A stretch of 64,000 nt of DNA from Streptomyces sp. NBC_00683 (GTDB lineage: Bacteria > Actinomycetota > Actinomycetes > Streptomycetales > Streptomycetaceae). Position 1 is the stretch's first letter. Each line of letters begins with the position of its first letter. Under the pieces are notes generated by a model. It had not been told where the DNA came from and searched no databases. It was given only the letters and a program-made list of their open reading frames with translations. Positions 35,731 through 42,348 of the stretch are shown here, one piece after another. The stretch spans positions 3,720,001 through 3,784,000 of the forward strand of contig NZ_CP109013.1 in NCBI RefSeq assembly GCF_036226745.1, in the 5' to 3' direction. Position numbers and translations under genes: made by a program.

Positions 35731-36423
35731 TTAGCGCTTGGCGACGAAGACGTGCGAGGCGACCTCGGAGTCCAGCTCCGCCGCCTCACCGCTGGAACCG
35801 ACCAGCACGCCGCCGGGCGACTCCGTCACGCTGACCACCGAGCCGGGCTGCACGCCCGCCCGCCGCAGCGTGTACATCAGCTGGGCGTCCGTCTGGATCG
35901 GCTCACCGATCCGGCGCACCACCACGGTCTTGCCCTCCGCGCCCGGGTCGAGCTCGGACAGGCTCACCATGCCCTCGTCCAGGAACGGATCGGCCTCCGC
36001 CTGCTCGCCCAGCTCCTCCAGGCCCGGGATCGGGTTCCCGTACGGAGACTCCGTCGGGTGCCGCAGCAGCTCCAGCACCCGGCGCTCCACGGCCTCACTC
36101 ATCACGTGCTCCCAGCGACAGGCCTCGGCGTGGACCTGCTCCCACTCCAGACCGATCACGTCGACGAGCAGGCACTCGGCGAGCCGGTGCTTGCGCATCA
36201 CGCGCGTCGCGAGGCGGCGCCCCTCGTCGGTCAATTCCAGATGGCGGTCACCCGCGACCTGGACGAGCCCGTCCCGCTCCATGCGCGCCACCGTCTGGCT
36301 GACCGTCGGACCGCTCTGGTCCAGCCGTTCCGCGATCCGGGCGCGCATCGGGACCACGCCTTCCTCTTCGAGCTCGAGGATGGTGCGGAGATACATCTCC
36401 GTTGTATCGATCAGTCCGGACAT
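35731..36423 (-). CDS. desR: DtxR/IdeR-type iron-dependent repressor
   Basis: 230 residues, full DtxR length. N-terminal winged helix (QSGPTVSQTVARMERDGL), dimerization domain with metal ligands visible as M (TTEMYLRTI) and C-x-x-E-H (CRWEH), and a C-terminal SH3-like FeoA domain. The Cys-Glu-His set is the iron-type arrangement, not MntR. In S. coelicolor the orthologous region encodes DesR, repressor of siderophore genes. No DtxR-box-like site is evident in this window. ATG at 36423 with GAGGGG upstream; divergent from the SIS gene. Confidence 0.9.
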   Translation of the reverse strand: MSGLIDTTEMYLRTILELEEEGVVPMRARIAERLDQSGPTVSQTVARMERDGLVQVAGDRHLELTDEGRRLATRVMRKHRLAECLLVDVIGLEWEQVHAEACRWEHVMSEAVERRVLELLRHPTESPYGNPIPGLEELGEQAEADPFLDEGMVSLSELDPGAEGKTVVVRRIGEPIQTDAQLMYTLRRAGVQPGSVVSVTESPGGVLVGSSGEAAELDSEVASHVFVAKR

Positions 36424-36611
36424 ACGTGCCCCTCGATGCTGTGACATGAAGTCGTCGTGCGATGGCCCTGCACCAATTCTGACGCATAGCAACGACAACC
36501 GTGCCGCCGCGGCGGCAGCCGGTGCACCGGAGCGGTATTGACAGCCCACTGGTCCAGACCGCAACGTGATCCGCGGCACGGACACCCCACCCCGTAGGAA
36601 AGGCCTCCTCG

Positions 36612-37367
36612 ATGAGCGACAGCACGCTTGCCGGTCAGTTCTTCGACGCAGCGATCGGCCTGTTGGAGCGTGTGCGCGACGAGGAGTCCGCCGCCGTCGC
36701 GGCCGCCGGTGCCGCGATCGCCGACACCGTCGCCGCGGGCGGCCGGCTCTTCGCCTTCGGGGCGGGGCACTCCTCCCTCGCCGCACAGGACGTCGTCTAC
36801 CGGGCGGGCGGATTCGCCCTGATGAACCTGCTCGCCGTCCCCGGCACCGTCGGCGTCGACGTCATGCCGGCCACGCTCGGCTCCGCGCTGGAGCGGGTGG
36901 ACGGTCTCGCGAGCGCCGTGCTCGACTCCAGCCCCGCGACGTCCGGCGACCTCCTCGTGATCATCTCCCTGTCGGGGCGCAACGCGCTGCCCGTGGAGAT
37001 GGCGCAGAACGCCCGGGCGCTCGGGCTGACGGTCATCGGCGTCACCTCGGTCGCGTACGCGACGGGCACCCGGTCGCGGCACACCTCGGGGGGATTCCTG
37101 CGGGACCACTGCGACATCGTCCTCGACAGCAAGATCTCGATCGGTGACGCGGAACTGACGGCGGACGGGATCGAGGCGCCGTTCGCGCCCGCGTCGACGG
37201 TCGTCACCAGTGCGCTGATGCAGGCGATGATGGCCACCGCCGCGGAGGAGCTGGTCGCCCGGGGGATCGAGCCGCCGCTGCTGCGGTCGGGGAACGTGGA
37301 CGGCGGGCACGAGTGGAACGGTCGCGTGATGCGGGAGTACGGGGACCGGATCTTCTACCGGCACTGA
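36612..37367 (+). CDS. SIS-domain sugar-phosphate protein (UPF0309)
   Basis: 251 residues. Single SIS domain with GAGHSSLAAQDVVYRAGG and IISLSGRNALPVEMAQNARALG, which forms the phosphosugar site. It is the UPF0309 family, kept next to desR in S. coelicolor. Likely an isomerase or phosphosugar-binding regulator; substrate unknown. A TTGACA box at 36538-36543 sits 68 bp upstream of the ATG, with only a weak -10. Confidence 0.9.
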   Translation: MSDSTLAGQFFDAAIGLLERVRDEESAAVAAAGAAIADTVAAGGRLFAFGAGHSSLAAQDVVYRAGGFALMNLLAVPGTVGVDVMPATLGSALERVDGLASAVLDSSPATSGDLLVIISLSGRNALPVEMAQNARALGLTVIGVTSVAYATGTRSRHTSGGFLRDHCDIVLDSKISIGDAELTADGIEAPFAPASTVVTSALMQAMMATAAEELVARGIEPPLLRSGNVDGGHEWNGRVMREYGDRIFYRH

Positions 37368-37428
37368 GCGGTGCCACGGACCGAGCGGCGCGGAGCGGCG
37401 CCCCGGACCGGGGTGCACGGTTCCGTCC

Positions 37429-38829
37429 TCACACGCCCGACGGGTCGCCGCCGCCGGCGGTCAGGCGCGCCAGGTCCACCGCCGAGGCGACCCGGACCGC
37501 CACGCTCTCCGCGTACATCGCGTCCGGGCGTTCGAACGCGCTGCGGCTCCCCGAGCGCAGGAACGTCACCACGCCCAGCGTCCGCCCCCGGCTCCGCAGC
37601 ACCGCGCACAGCGCGTGCACCGCATCCCGCGGCCACTGGCGTTCCACCGCCCACTCCTCGCCCGCCCCGGCCCGCGCGCTGGCCCGTACCGAGCCCGTAC
37701 GCTCCACCGCCTGCAGGGCAGGGTGCCCCGGCCCGTACCGCACCGGGATCGAGCCGCCCGACACCGGCAGGCACGGGCCCGGCGCGTCGGCCGGCGTCGC
37801 CGCGGCCCGCACCAGCCGCTCCCCCGCCAGCAGATCGACCACCACATGGTCGGCGAACCCGGCCAGGGCGAAGTCCAGCGAGGAGGTCGCCGCCTCCATG
37901 GGGTCCTCGCACTCGGCCGCCTGGCGGGCCGCCCGGTGCAGCTGGTTCGACCGGAAGCGCACCCGGTCCGCCTCCTGCTCCGCGAGCTTCGCCGCCGTCA
38001 CGTCCCGGAACAGCCAGCCGACCCCCAGCGGGACCGGTTCCTCGGCCAGGGGCGACGCCAGCCGCAGGAACCCGCTGCGCCAGCAGCGCCGCCGGTCGCC
38101 CTCGGCCGTCCTGAGCGTCACCCACAGCTCCGCGGGCGCGGGCGGCGACCCCTCGGCGAGCACGTGCTGCAGCGCGCCCTCCAGGTCCTCGACCCCCTGG
38201 ACGACCAGTTCGCCCAGCGGACGTCCCAGCAGCGCCGTACGCCCGCCTCCCAGCGCCCGCGCGGCGTAGGAGTTGACGACGGTCGGCCGCAGATCGACAT
38301 CGACGAGGACGACACCCCACGACGCGTCCTCGAACAACGCCTCGCTCAGCGCGATGGACCGCTCCAGATCGATCTGCGCGTGCACCTCACTGAACGCGCA
38401 GTACACCCCGGCCGGCTTCCCGCCCTCGCCGCGCACCCCGGAGGACTGCGTCCGTACGAGCACCCGCCCGCCGTCCTTGCGCAGCAGCGCGAACTCGTGG
38501 ACCTGCCGCCCGGGGGCGTCCATGGCGGACATCAGCCGGCCCTGCACGTCCCCCGCGTCCGCGCTCCGCACCGCCCACCCGGCGAATCCGCTCCGCCCCA
38601 CGGCTTCCCCGGCGGACCAGCCGAGAATCCGCTCGGCCTCACGGTTCCAGTGGGTGATCGTGCCGTGGGCGTCGAACGCGCAGAGCGCGGCGTCCATCCC
38701 GTCGAGCAGCGCCGCGAGCAACTGGGACCCGGGGATCGCAACCGCACGGGGCTCGCGCCCGGGGTCCGGCTCGGGGTCCTCGTCGGGTCCGAGCGCGTCG
38801 GTGGTTCCACTGCTCCTGGAAGCACTCAC
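37429..38829 (-). CDS. PAS-PAS-GAF sensory protein without an output domain
   Basis: 466 residues from the GTG at 38829. Two PAS domains (about 30-150, DAALCAFDAHGTITHWNREAERILGW; and about 165-285, GVVLVDVDLRPTVVNSYAARALGG) and a GAF-like domain (about 300-455). Streptomyces proteins of this layout usually end in a PP2C or SpoIIE phosphatase or an ATPase; here the chain ends after GAF, with no kinase, phosphatase or DNA-binding domain. It may act by protein contact. Ligand unknown. Reads away from the intergenic small-RNA locus. Confidence 0.85.
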   Translation of the reverse strand: MSASRSSGTTDALGPDEDPEPDPGREPRAVAIPGSQLLAALLDGMDAALCAFDAHGTITHWNREAERILGWSAGEAVGRSGFAGWAVRSADAGDVQGRLMSAMDAPGRQVHEFALLRKDGGRVLVRTQSSGVRGEGGKPAGVYCAFSEVHAQIDLERSIALSEALFEDASWGVVLVDVDLRPTVVNSYAARALGGGRTALLGRPLGELVVQGVEDLEGALQHVLAEGSPPAPAELWVTLRTAEGDRRRCWRSGFLRLASPLAEEPVPLGVGWLFRDVTAAKLAEQEADRVRFRSNQLHRAARQAAECEDPMEAATSSLDFALAGFADHVVVDLLAGERLVRAAATPADAPGPCLPVSGGSIPVRYGPGHPALQAVERTGSVRASARAGAGEEWAVERQWPRDAVHALCAVLRSRGRTLGVVTFLRSGSRSAFERPDAMYAESVAVRVASAVDLARLTAGGGDPSGV

Positions 38830-38949
38830 TCCGTACCCCCCGCAGGACGTGTTCCGCATTGCCGCACGTCAGACCATTGAACTCGAACGTGAGCCACCGC
38901 ACAGCCACTTCCGCGAAATCCGGCGGCCATCCGATCCCCGATAAATGGC

Positions 38950-38978
38950 TTGTGTCTCCCGGGACGGGTTCCTAGGCT
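38950..38978 (+). promoter_or_regulatory. Promoter of the intergenic small transcript
   Basis: TTGTGT (38950-38955), 17-bp spacer, TAGGCT (38973-38978): a good vegetative Streptomyces promoter. Transcription would start near 38985, about 8 nt before the extended Shine-Dalgarno. Confidence 0.6.
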
Positions 38979-39011
38979 GTGGTCACACGTCGAAAGGAGG
39001 TGATCCGAAAA

Positions 39012-39050
39012 GTGCAGTCTTATCGGATTCGTGAGGTGGCTGCGGGCTGA
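39012..39050 (+). CDS. 12-codon small ORF behind a perfect Shine-Dalgarno
   Basis: GTG at 39012 encodes MQSYRIREVAAG and stops at 39048-39050. AAAGGAGGTGATCC (38993-39006) is complementary over all 14 bases to the 3' end of 16S rRNA, one of the strongest ribosome sites imaginable, with GGAGG 11 nt before the start. The stop codon lies in a small hairpin (GGGCT/AGCCC, 39044-39056). It could be a leader peptide, a stalling peptide, a ribosome-binding decoy, or the remnant of a gene: the first residues recall small HTH/TOBE proteins starting MQSYxI. Confidence 0.45.
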   Translation: MQSYRIREVAAG

Positions 39051-39112
39051 CAGCCCGTCGTCGCACACAGTGCACCTCGGCAGGCTGTCTGCCGAAACCC
39101 AAGCAGTCACCG

Positions 39113-39178
39113 ACCCGCAGGCTCGCCGGTAAGTCCGGCCGGCTCCTCCGCAAGGAGGGACCAGAGCCTGCGGGTTTC
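39113..39178 (+). ncRNA. Three-way-junction RNA ending as a terminator
   Basis: Outer stem ACCCGCAGGCTC (39113-39124) / GAGCCTGCGGGT (39164-39175), perfect over 12 bp, encloses two helices: GCCGG/CCGGC (39125-39129, 39135-39139, loop TAAGT) and CCTCC/GGAGG (39145-39149, 39154-39158) capped by a GCAA tetraloop of the GNRA class. TTTC follows. The CCTCC arm could instead pair with the GGAGG of the small ORF's ribosome site. A further 6-bp hairpin (39078-39094) lies between. With its promoter this makes a transcript of about 190 nt ahead of no plus-strand gene. Confidence 0.55.
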
Positions 39179-39210
39179 TGCGTGTCCGGGGCCCGGTGGG
39201 GCCCAGGGCC

Positions 39211-39921
39211 CTACGGGCAGAGCCGCTCCACGGTCCAGTCCTCGCCCTCGCGTACGTAGCGCAGCCGGTCGTGCAGCCGGTTCTCGTGGCCCTGCCAGAA
39301 CTCGATCGTCTCCGGTACGACGCGGAAGCCGCCCCACTGCGGGGGTGCGGGGACCTTCTCGCCCTCCGGGTAGCGGGCGGCCAGCTCCTCGTAGCGCGTC
39401 ACCAGCTCCTCGCGGGAGCCGATCACCGTGGACTGCTCGCTCGCCCAGGCGCCGAGCTGGGAGCCGTGCGGGCGGGTACGGAAGTAGGCGACCGTCTCCT
39501 CGCGGCCGACGCGGACCGCGGTGCCGGTGACGATGACCTGGCGGGCCAGCGGGTGCCAGGGGAAGAGCAGCGAGACGTAGTGGTTCGCGGTCAGCTCCCG
39601 GCCCTTGCGGGAGCCGTAATTGGTGAAGAAGACGAAACCGCGGTCGTCGTAGTGCTTCAGCAGCACCGTGCGGGAGGACGGCCGGCCCTCGGGCGTGGCC
39701 GTGGAGACCACCATCGCGTTCGGCTCGTGGAGTGCGCCGCCCCCGGCGACCTGGCGGAACCAGTGGGCGAACTGGTCCATCGGATCGGCGGCGAGGTCCT
39801 TCTCGGTGAAGTCCTCGGAGCGGTACTGCTCGCGCATCGCGGCCGGATCGGTGGTGCAATCGGAGGCAGAGGCGCGAGAGGAGGCGGAAGCGGAAGACGG
39901 AGTGGCATCAGCTGTGGGCAC
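39211..39921 (-). CDS. pdxH: Pyridoxamine 5'-phosphate oxidase
   Basis: 236 residues from the GTG at 39921, with an unstructured N-terminal tail of about 27 residues before [10 protein letters not shown]. Canonical PdxH marks: [42 protein letters not shown] (FMN contacts), [14 protein letters not shown], and the terminal R-x-D-R-x-R...W-x-V-E-R-L-C-P. It makes pyridoxal 5'-phosphate from PNP or PMP with FMN and O2. Divergent from the citrate synthase gene, as in S. coelicolor. Confidence 0.93.
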
Positions 39922-40096
39922 GGGGCCATCCTGCCGCAGCGGGTCGGTGTGCCGGGCCGGTAGGGGGCACAACCGCCCGCCGGAGCAACCCGGTGCTGTG
40001 CGGGATGTCACCCTTCCCCGCATCGTGGGTACCCGCCAGTATCGAGAGCGGGCCTCCGTGGCCTGCATACAGCCGCCGAGCCGAGGGAGCCGCCCG

Positions 40097-41206
40097 ATGT
40101 CCGACTTCGTACCCGGACTTGAAGGAGTCGTCGCGTTCGAGACGGAGATCGCCGAGCCCGACAAGGAAGGCGGCTCGCTCCGCTACCGCGGCGTCGACAT
40201 CGAGGACCTCGTCGGCCATGTGTCGTTCGGCAACGTCTGGGGTCTGCTGGTCGACGGGGCGTTCAACCCCGGCCTGCCGCCCGCCGAACCGTTCCCGATC
40301 CCCGTGCACTCCGGCGACATCCGTGTCGACGTGCAGTCCGCGCTCGCCATGCTGGCGCCCGTGTGGGGTCTCAAACCGCTGCTCGACATCGACGAGGAGA
40401 CCGCCCGCAACGACCTGGCGCGGGCCGCGGTGATGGCCCTGTCGTACGTGGCCCAGTCGGCGCGCGGCCAGGGGCTGCCGATGGTTCCGCAGAGCGAGAT
40501 CGACAAGGCACAGTCCGTCGTGGAACGGTTCATGATCCGCTGGCGCGGTGAGCCGGACCCCCGGCACGTGAAGGCGGTCGACGCCTACTGGACCTCTGCG
40601 GCCGAGCACGGCATGAACGCCTCGACGTTCACCGCCCGCGTCATCGCGTCGACCGGCGCGGACGTGTCGGCGGCGCTGTCGGGTGCGGTGGGCGCGATGT
40701 CGGGTCCGCTGCACGGTGGTGCCCCGTCCCGGGTCCTCGGCATGATCGAGGAGATCGAGCGGACCGGCGACGCCACCGCGTACGTGAAGAAGGCCCTGGA
40801 CAAGGGCGAACGGCTGATGGGCTTCGGCCACCGCGTCTACCGCGCCGAGGACCCGCGCGCCCGCGTCCTGCGGCGTACGGCCCGCGAGCTGGCGGCGCCG
40901 CGCTTCGAGGTGGCGGAGGCGCTGGAGAAGGCCGCCCTCGAGGAGCTGCACGCCAGGCGCCCGGACCGGGTGCTGGCGACGAACGTCGAGTTCTGGGCGG
41001 CGATCGTGCTGGACTTCGCGGAGGTCCCGGCGCACATGTTCACGTCGATGTTCAGCTGCGCCCGTACGGCGGGCTGGTCGGCACACATCCTGGAGCAGAA
41101 GCGGACGGGCCGGCTGGTGCGCCCCTCGGCGACGTACGTCGGTCCGGGTTCGCGCAACCCGCAGGAGATCCCGGGGTACGAGCAGCTCGCCGACCTGGGG
41201 AACTGA
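40097..41206 (+). CDS. citA: Citrate synthase (short type, citrate synthase 2)
   Basis: 369 residues, the short bacterial type. Catalytic marks: [16 protein letters not shown] (His), [14 protein letters not shown] (His) and [17 protein letters not shown] (Asp). It condenses acetyl-CoA and oxaloacetate to citrate. Streptomyces usually encodes several synthases; this is the accessory gene next to pdxH, and a 2-methylcitrate role cannot be excluded. ATG at 40097. A long hairpin terminator follows. Confidence 0.9.
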
Positions 41207-41291
41207 CGGGAGCGGGGCGCCACGTTCCGCTGCTCACCGCGGGGTCGACATCTCTTCTGCCCTGGCTGCTCGGCGAGGCCGGCCTGTTCAA

Positions 41292-41329
41292 GGGGGGAAC
41301 CGCGCGCAGGCGTGGGCGCGGTTTCCCCC
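41292..41329 (+). terminator. Terminator after the citrate synthase gene
   Basis: GGGGGGAACCGCGC (41292-41305) pairs with GCGCGGTTTCCCCC (41316-41329) with one G-T wobble; flanking TCAA/TTGA lengthens the stem to about 18 bp. It also faces the convergent small gene at 41339. Confidence 0.75.
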
Positions 41330-41338
41330 TTGAGCCAT

Positions 41339-41668
41339 TCATGCGTCGGGGTGGGTGCGCGGGAGTCCCAGTTCCGGCAGGTCGAGGTTGTCCTTGTGCC
41401 GGAACTCGGTGCAGCCGCACCTGTCGCCGTACTTCTGCTGGCTGTTGCCGTAGCTGTCGTTGTTCCAGGTGTGGTGCCCGTAATCGTGATGGCATTCGGT
41501 CGCCCTGCCTCGGGAGTGCTCGGGCTGTGCGTGCCCGCACGTGGCGCACAACGGGTACACGACCACAGGGCGCAGGATGGATCCGCTCCGCAGAATCACC
41601 ACAAGGGCCACTGCGGCCGCGATGATCAAGACCATTCCTACGAGACCGACGACATGCTCCGCGCTCAT
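41339..41668 (-). CDS. Small membrane-anchored Cys/His-rich protein
   Basis: 109 residues from the ATG at 41668. One transmembrane helix (VVGLVGMVLIIAAAVALVVIL, about 5-27) is followed by a Cys/His-rich region: CATCGHAQPEH, CHHDYGHHTW, DRCGCTEFRH. The four cysteines and clustered histidines suggest a metal site. Unrecognised family; metal binding is inference. Codon use is like its neighbours. It lies downstream of the TetR gene on the same strand with about 65 bp between. Confidence 0.7.
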   Translation of the reverse strand: MSAEHVVGLVGMVLIIAAAVALVVILRSGSILRPVVVYPLCATCGHAQPEHSRGRATECHHDYGHHTWNNDSYGNSQQKYGDRCGCTEFRHKDNLDLPELGLPRTHPDA

Positions 41669-41733
41669 GTTCAAGCCCCCGCTGTCAGTGCCGGCCGGCC
41701 CTGCGATCAGCCCGCCGATCGGTGGTTTCCACG

Positions 41734-42348
41734 CTACGGGGCAGGACTGACAGCGGGCCCCAGCGCCTCGTCCAGCAGCGCCGCCCACTGGGCCACGACC
41801 CTGCGCCGACGGGCTGTGTCGTCGGTGAGGACGTTGGCGAGGCCGAGGCCGCGGGCCATGTCGAGGAGGCCCTGGACCGTCTCGCGGACTCCGGGGCTGC
41901 TCTCGTCGGCGCCGAGGAGCTCGACGGCGATGCGGTGGGTCTCACGGCCCACGCGGGCCTCTAGTTCGGTGACGCGGGGACGGAGCTGCTCCTCGTTGGA
42001 CGCGGCGACCCAGAGCTGCAGCGCGGCGCGGAAGAGCGGCCCCGTGTAGAGGTCGACGATGGCGGCGAGCACCGCCGGGCGGCCCTGGACGGGCAGGGCG
42101 CGCAGGGCGGCCGAGCGTTCCTCGGCGACGTACTCGACGGCGCCGGTGAACAGGTCCTCGCGGGTGGGGAAGTGGTGCTGGGCGGCGCCGCGCGACACCC
42201 CGGCGCGTTCGGCGACGACGGAGACGGTGGAGCCTGCCCAGCCGTGTTCGGCGAGGCAGGCGACCGCCGCTTCCAGGAGCCGTTGGCGGGTGGCCCGGCT
42301 CCTGTCCTGCTTGGGGGATTTCGGGTTCGGGGGCGTTACCACACCCAT
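41734..42348 (-). CDS. TetR-family regulator of the catabolic operon
   Basis: 204 residues. Helix-turn-helix in STVSVVAERAGVSRGAAQHHFPTREDLF (about 39-67), with a helical ligand domain behind. ATG at 42348 overlaps the end of the enoyl-CoA hydratase gene by 13 bp, so it is cotranscribed with the acyl-CoA operon and is the obvious candidate regulator (AtuR-like). The likely operator is the palindrome at 52078-52091. The inducer would be an acyl-CoA of the pathway; inference. Confidence 0.88.
   Translation of the reverse strand: MGVVTPPNPKSPKQDRSRATRQRLLEAAVACLAEHGWAGSTVSVVAERAGVSRGAAQHHFPTREDLFTGAVEYVAEERSAALRALPVQGRPAVLAAIVDLYTGPLFRAALQLWVAASNEEQLRPRVTELEARVGRETHRIAVELLGADESSPGVRETVQGLLDMARGLGLANVLTDDTARRRRVVAQWAALLDEALGPAVSPAP

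Follow-up and report, generated by a model that had tools for sequence, protein, structure and literature searches.

In the trp and his leader-peptide attenuators, translation of a short open reading frame (ORF) selects among alternative RNA structures, and in the S15 mRNA a pseudoknot entraps the 30S subunit near the initiation site. SgrS, RNAIII and Spot 42 are dual-function sRNAs, and tmRNA holds a short ORF inside a pseudoknotted RNA, with the stop codon in a helix. The small RNA described here resembles each of them in part. As in the trp and his attenuators, translation of a short ORF may act as the chooser of RNA structure, but the RNA is free-standing, without a constant downstream gene and without a run of one codon kind. 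With the S15 mRNA it shares a pseudoknot near the initiation site and a strong ribosome site, yet it encodes no ribosomal protein, is not known to bind a protein ligand and has a terminator loop as its pseudoknot partner. It is a small structured RNA carrying a short ORF, as are SgrS, RNAIII and Spot 42, but its peptide is not conserved apart from pairing. The short ORF in a pseudoknotted RNA and the stop codon in a helix recall tmRNA, whereas the start and ribosome site are the RNA's own; no Rfam match to tmRNA, with its tRNA-like domain, was found in 36000-42000 at E up to 1. What appears to be new is the conservation of the ORF and its being held by pairing largely absent from the Rfam consensus, and an orphan sRNA family thereby gains an architecture: a conserved frame, an unconserved product and three pairings beyond that consensus.

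Identity and range of the RNA

The window, that is, the whole stretch of 64,000 nucleotides of Streptomyces sp. NBC_00683 that was analysed, holds on its plus strand (38985..39183) a full-length match to Rfam RF02471 (Ms_IGR-5), complete over model positions 1-184 and above the gathering score (cmscan; 84.6 bits, gathering 45, E 2.8e-18). The element is a member of this family, which is described as 'Actinobacteria sRNA'. Because of the full-length match, a fold z-score of -6.82 and the rare 15-mer of its ribosome site (see below), the observation stands above chance. At E up to 1, no Rfam family besides RF02471 was found in 36000-42000, nor was a metabolite-binding domain indicated there, which speaks against the metabolite-sensing RNA that an earlier note on this DNA had considered.

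In the passages of the literature that were found, the S. lividans counterpart SLIV_16488 is given as validated by RNA-seq ('yes'; PMC8079986), the S. avermitilis RNA is published as an sRNA transcription unit (PMC8780764) and an sRNA of M. smegmatis overlaps IGR-5 (PMC10454040). Ribosome-protected reads lie on the Ms_IGR-5 RNA in M. abscessus and M. smegmatis, with the caveat, made in the same passages, that non-coding RNAs may show footprints via co-sedimenting RNPs (PMC4974804). S. coelicolor scr4389 is among the 11 confirmed ncRNAs listed in another source (PMC8388888). The passages found state no function for RF02471, and the ORF, the helices P2 and P0 and the pseudoknot are absent from the published accounts found, which include few subscription papers, so that absence from the record as a whole is unproven. 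Going by gene numbering, scr4389 may be the RF02471 RNA of S. coelicolor.

RF02471 has a single match in the NBC_00683 genome. Under strict filters, it matched 60 of 61 genomes of a genus sample (one match each), 249 of 394 genomes of a class sample (247 above the cut-off) and 40 of 198 genomes of a phylum sample (20 above the cut-off); by the Rfam model and these filters, 145 of the 394 class genomes had no match. Searching plasmids and phages by blastn with the 206-base element gave no match. The sole genus genome without a match (G008; 5.5 Mb, 98% complete, 740 contigs) may reflect loss or an assembly gap, and two genomes of the class sample (G143 and G400) carry two matches each rather than one.

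A pattern scan found at least 80 loci, two of which (L162 and L185) duplicate loci among the 120 relatives compared below, and one of which lies in a MAG titled Spirochaetia bacterium. In the phylum of this MAG, R1, a model built in this analysis without the pseudoknot pairs, though its sequence consensus spans both strands, matched 4 of 60 genomes; by class, it matched 1 of 4 genomes in one and 10 of 48 in another, the sets overlapping. The RF02471 architecture is seen at L270-L280, in genomes grouped with the MAG. In the Rfam scan of ten loci of this spirochaete group, eight were listed at E up to 1, each below the 45-bit cut-off, and no family other than RF02471 appeared up to E 1. Judged from sequence, the architecture reaches beyond Actinomycetota, to the genomes grouped with the Spirochaetia MAG, which widens the known range of the family. 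The earlier note had missed this presence outside Actinomycetota, as well as the Rfam family itself and the ORF-binding P0, P2 and pseudoknot.

Transcription signals, ribosome site and reading frame

The -35 box TTGTGT (38950..38955) and, after a 17-nt spacer, the -10 box TAGGCT (38973..38978) are read directly from the plus strand, as the earlier note had proposed. The last upstream TANNNT lies 15-17 nt ahead of GGAGGTG in 120 of 120 relatives, and the two T's of the -35 box TT are retained in 71% and 64% of them, respectively. Upstream of the -35 box, an A-tract (38943..38945, plus strand) may be UP-element-like; among the 120 loci, 83% have an A 53 nt ahead of GGAGGTG and 86% have one at 52 nt. 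The transcription start probably lies near 38984-38985. An E. coli-type scan of 38600-39600 returned no promoter and no U-tract terminator; it is thus conservation, rather than that consensus, that supports the promoter and the terminator.

The terminator stem pairs 39112..39124 with 39164..39176 (plus strand) in 13 pairs, one of them G-U, and encloses two hairpins, one of them with a GCAA loop, which bears out the stem with two helices and a GNRA loop described earlier. Its cells are paired to 97.7%, and 11 of 12 pairs are changed on both sides (54 sequences). The first inner hairpin (39125..39143, plus strand) includes GUCC at 39133-39136, although the minimum free energy (MFE) fold draws a shorter loop; the second (39145..39158, plus strand), CCTCC-GCAA-GGAGG, is variable in relatives. 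Sequestration of the ribosome site by its CCTCC arm, a suggestion of the earlier note, finds no support, as this hairpin is missing in the predicted folds of the f4 loci shown (for example, L031-L041). A U-tract closes the terminator in some spirochaete-group members such as L271 and L275.

The RNA lies between a divergent gene for a PAS-domain protein (37429..38859, minus strand; Pfam) and a convergent pdxH frame (39211..40164, minus strand; Pfam PNPOx_N), followed by a citrate synthase frame (39668..41206, plus strand; Pfam Citrate_synt). In flanks of about 1.5 or 3 kb per locus, this set recurs, as matching protein clusters, among the 120 loci (PAS 34, pdxH 37 and citrate synthase 43), and a second set (GCV_T 32, THAP4-like 30 and aminotransferase IV 22) occurs in family f4, which is probably the mycobacteria, and in others. 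The downstream neighbour is, depending on the family, convergent pdxH, a convergent THAP4-like protein or a co-directional histidine phosphatase, the last in five loci of family f18. Since the neighbouring genes differ between families, the RNA is not the leader of one gene, in agreement with the free-standing small transcript postulated earlier. An attenuator for citrate synthase was considered and ruled out by synteny.

The extended ribosome site GAAAGGAGGTGATCC (38992..39006, plus strand) is complementary to the 16S 3' tail over 15 nt, one more than the earlier note had counted. Seven copies of the 15-mer GAAAGGAGGUGAUCC exist in the 8.52 Mb genome, namely the six 16S 3' ends (opposite strand) and this site. 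At least 15 contiguous pairs with the 16-nt 16S tail (G-U allowed) can form in 113 of 120 relatives, with a mean duplex energy of -28.6 kcal/mol over the 120; of 120 other GGAGGTG sites taken from the same loci as control, none reaches 15 pairs and one reaches 14. The site is thereby predicted to be capable of a duplex of about 15-16 bases with the 16S 3' tail.

The 12-codon ORF MQSYRIREVAAG (39012..39050, plus strand; GTG start, TGA stop), already seen in the earlier note, is kept in all of the 120 loci, each time with a start, a stop and 12 codons. With the start position taken 21 nt ahead of the invariant GAGGTG, the starts are ATG in 55, TTG in 44, GTG in 20 and ATT in 1, the spacing from ribosome site to start takes four values and the distance from start to stop only one. 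The script that chose the ribosome site favoured candidates with GGA ahead of codon 7 and a stop no more than 8 codons away, and did not weigh the start codon or the exact length. In a frame control that counted short ORFs starting 4-17 nt after GGAGGTG with ATG, GTG or TTG, such an ORF began in frame 0 in 119 of the 120 loci (other frames, 8 and 15), in 13 of 25 out-of-class loci (1 and 4) and in 11 of 11 spirochaete-group loci (0 and 2); allowing near-cognate starts, the counts became 120 (30 and 26), 23 (5 and 8) and 11 (3 and 7), respectively. Counted from GAG, the stop codon comes fifth in all of the 120 loci and, among the far loci, in 35 of 36.

Where found, the ORF has 11, 12, 13, 14, 15 or 17 codons. 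Among the matches listed from the pattern scan, 78 of 80 have 12 codons, with 11 in L223 and 14 in the Spirochaetia MAG; 23 of 25 out-of-class loci, with near-cognate starts admitted, have 13-15; and nine of the 11 spirochaete-group loci have 14, the others 15 and 17. Ten out-of-class ORFs start with CTG (6), ATC (2) or ATT (2) (L124, L125, L127, L135, L137-L139, L143, L145 and L146); the combination of a weak start with a very strong ribosome site recalls infC. For the out-of-class locus L130, no NTG or ATT/ATC/ATA start was found in frame. L141 is a divergent member: its ORF, of 10 codons, is shifted in frame with respect to GAGGTG, and the terminator sequence shown lacks GUCC.

The peptide consensus is M-x3-[RW]-T-[RC]-E-V-[AT]-[AV]-[RGS], with E-V invariant in the 120 loci and Thr at codon 6 in 115 of them. 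Across the 120 loci, variation at the third positions of codons 2-4 is in no clear excess, and the sequences gave no clear sign of an amino-acid constraint, other than RNA pairing, that would indicate a conserved functional peptide. The ORF is conserved and the peptide is not, and RNA pairing accounts for the consensus residues. The specific stalling or decoy peptide entertained in the earlier note fits poorly with codons 2-4 and with amino acids that track pairing.

Pairings that involve the reading frame

Comparison of relatives shows codons 5-12 bound into a fold by the pseudoknot, P0, P2 and P3, together with the RNA 5' end and the terminator. In P2, the 5' arm GGUGGCUGC (39035..39043, plus strand; codons 8-11) pairs with the 3' arm GCAGUCACC (39103..39111, plus strand), which lies before the terminator. 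The Rfam consensus differs: GCAGUCACC is unpaired in its structure line, bases of the ribosome site pair with the P2 5' strand instead, and, as printed, it has neither P0 nor the pseudoknot, both of which are described here for the window RNA. With the 3' arm located by similarity to a consensus string that itself contains the arm, 1057 of 1080 P2 cells are paired in the 120 loci, compared with a column-shuffle mean of 1025.8 (maximum 1035), a maximum of 1055 in within-family permutation and at most 682 in slid registers. Variants in relatives include GGTGGCTAC/GTAGCCACC, GGTGACCAT/ATGGTCACC and GGTGTCCGC/GTGGACACC. An independent tool, run on 54 of the 120, counted 97.1% paired and 4 of 9 pairs changed on both sides. 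All nine pairs form in 69 of 78 pattern-scan loci among the matches listed, and P2 takes the form of 4+4 pairs around a small bulge in 20 of 25 out-of-class loci and 10 of 11 of the spirochaete group.

P0 joins the RNA 5' end, CACG (38986..38989, plus strand), to CGUG (39030..39033, plus strand), which is codon 7 plus the first base, G, of codon 8. When 150 anchored columns were scanned for coupling, the strongest signal linked the leader to the codon-7 third base, and the pseudoknot flank ranked third. P0 is fully Watson-Crick in 99 of 120 loci, compared with a permuted mean of 56.8 (maximum 69) and a within-family maximum of 88. Besides CACG/CGUG, the sets include CACA/UGUG (codon R to C), CUUC/GAAG (R to E), CGCG/CGCG and CACU/AGUG, and out of class CCAG/CUGG, CGUG/CACG, CAGG/CCUG and CGAG/CUCG. 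It forms in 24 of 25 out-of-class loci and, with the spirochaete group included, in 29 of 36 (permuted maximum 20); taken by itself, the spirochaete group has a weak P0, with the full 4 pairs in 5 of 11.

The pseudoknot pairs CGGAUU (39024..39029, plus strand; codons 5-6) with AGUCCG (39132-39137, plus strand) in the first inner terminator hairpin. In that hairpin, every one of the 120 loci has GUCC 14-32 nt past the P2 3' arm, the least paired copy being chosen in the 7 loci with more than one in the interval, and this GUCC is wholly unpaired in the predicted fold of 77 of the 120, a fold that may misdraw the loop. It faces GGAC in 115 loci and GGAU, with a U-G wobble, in 5. The flank pair, between the third base of codon 6 and the base before GUCC, forms in 90 of 120 loci (G-C 43, U-A 24, A-U 19 and a few G-U) and is unpaired in 30; the shuffle gave a mean of 53.4 (maximum 69), and within families a mean of 72.6 (maximum 89 in 5000). 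Among the matches listed from the pattern scan, 47 of 65 loci have the flank pair (shuffle maximum 43).

Since the core varies among the 120 only between C/G and U-G, a double change of the core rests on the pattern-scan set. Among the matches listed, 75 of 80 loci (leaving out L162, L185, L217 and two short loci, and accepting AUCC only without GUCC) have 62 C/G, 12 T/A (GGAU/AUCC) and 1 T/G. GUCC is missing from the expected interval in 13 of 78 loci among the matches listed, 12 of which have AUCC facing GGAU; the thirteenth, L217, is the Spirochaetia MAG locus. The GGAU core turns Thr into Met or Ile; the amino acid therefore follows the RNA. In the spirochaete group, pseudoknot partners include TGACC/GGTCA in L280 and TGACT/AGTCA in L276 and L278, as returned by a permissive 5-mer search of the far loci that sometimes chose another site. 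P0, P2 and the pseudoknot flank all exceed their shuffle controls, and the check that the earlier note had proposed, stem covariation together with a conserved ORF in relatives, brought out both.

In the MFE fold, P3 pairs codon 12, the stop and the following bases (39045..39056, plus strand) with 39083..39093 (plus strand), and 76.9% of its cells are paired in alignment A1. The MFE fold of the window also contains a competing hairpin, P1 (39003-39008 with 39023-39028), whose comparative support is marginal (548 of 600 cells; shuffle mean 538.9, maximum 547). Here the bases after the ribosome site pair with GGAC, and for the same five bases P1 is a poorer fit than the 16S tail (column counts of 120: 106, 120, 120, 115 and 87 for P1; 116, 120, 120, 115 and 115 for 16S). 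P1 is therefore kept only as an alternative state. Ahead of the P2 3' arm (window about 39095-39100), AAUNCC-like bases recur in the alignment and are unpaired in the fold; they are possibly a seed or a protein site.

A proposed role for the ribosome, and rival explanations

We consider it somewhat probable that this small RNA stands alone and is operated by the ribosome, and that what is conserved is its translation as such rather than the peptide. Since start, frame and stop are kept and no peptide is conserved beyond pairing, the conserved function would most simply be ribosome passage or docking. The ribosome-protected reads in the two mycobacteria and the variable downstream genes agree with this reading. 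Against it count the caveat on such footprints, the weak P0 of the spirochaete group, the exceptions L130 and L141, the competing P1, the 30 loci with an unpaired flank, the narrow core variation among the 120 and the 145 class genomes without a match under strict filters. A 30S subunit would dock on the ribosome site. Positions +13 to +18 from the start mark the edge of an initiating 30S, and as the pseudoknot stands there, ribosome entry may be gated. An elongating ribosome reading codons 5-12 would melt the pseudoknot, P0, P2 and P3 and so release the RNA 5' end and a CACC strand, and the latter could pair with the ribosome site, limiting re-initiation; 6-7 contiguous pairs (G-U allowed) are possible in 101 of 120 loci, a count without control, which suggests self-limitation. 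The RNA would thus exist in two forms, folded when untranslated and opened when translated, and would read out the ease of ribosome initiation. As for its output, our guess is that the folded form persists and is active, either in trans or by holding 30S subunits, and that translation switches the RNA off or marks it for decay.

Taken further, and more tentatively than its first part, this reading would make the RNA a device of at least two phyla with the ribosome as ligand, which senses initiation capacity through a frame placed in a pseudoknotted fold behind a 15-16-nt 16S complement, the peptide being a by-product. It would then be a free-standing RNA that measures ribosome engagement; few dedicated bacterial RNA sensors of this kind are known.

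The strongest competitor, with a minor share of the probability, is a trans-acting base-pairing sRNA, in which the freed strand of AAUNCC and GCAGUCACC is the seed and the ORF only couples decay or activity to translation. The Rfam class (sRNA), the S. avermitilis transcription unit and the S. lividans RNA-seq validation, as given in the passages found, agree with it, as do the recurrent AAUNCC-like bases before P2, but internal pairing already explains much of the conservation. Less probable still is a dual-function sRNA or micropeptide gene, whose 12-residue peptide acts and whose fold only controls its synthesis. The ORF in all 120 loci, the invariant E-V and the Thr at codon 6 would be expected of such a gene; these residues, however, sit in pairing codons, codon 7 changes between R, C, E and S with the leader and codon 6 from T to I or M with the loop, codons 2-4 behave as described above and L141 uses another frame. 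As a general caution, a conserved micro-ORF does not by itself imply a functional micropeptide.

A cis-acting leader or attenuator of a downstream gene would share the short ORF, the switchable helices and the terminator, and in some loci a co-directional gene does follow (the histidine phosphatase of the five f18 loci), but the downstream neighbours vary by family and the next gene in the window is the convergent pdxH, so that this explanation is very improbable. A degraded gene, as the earlier note had allowed, or chance signals carry hardly any probability at all in the face of the Rfam match, the covariation and conservation across genus, class and beyond. The favoured reading remains that of an RNA operated by the ribosome.

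A minor observation concerns the stop codon of the ORF. High-GC actinobacteria usually favour TGA, yet in the 120 loci the stops are TAG in 102, TGA in 12 and TAA in 6. The excess of TAG could reflect P3 pairing or the choice of release factor.
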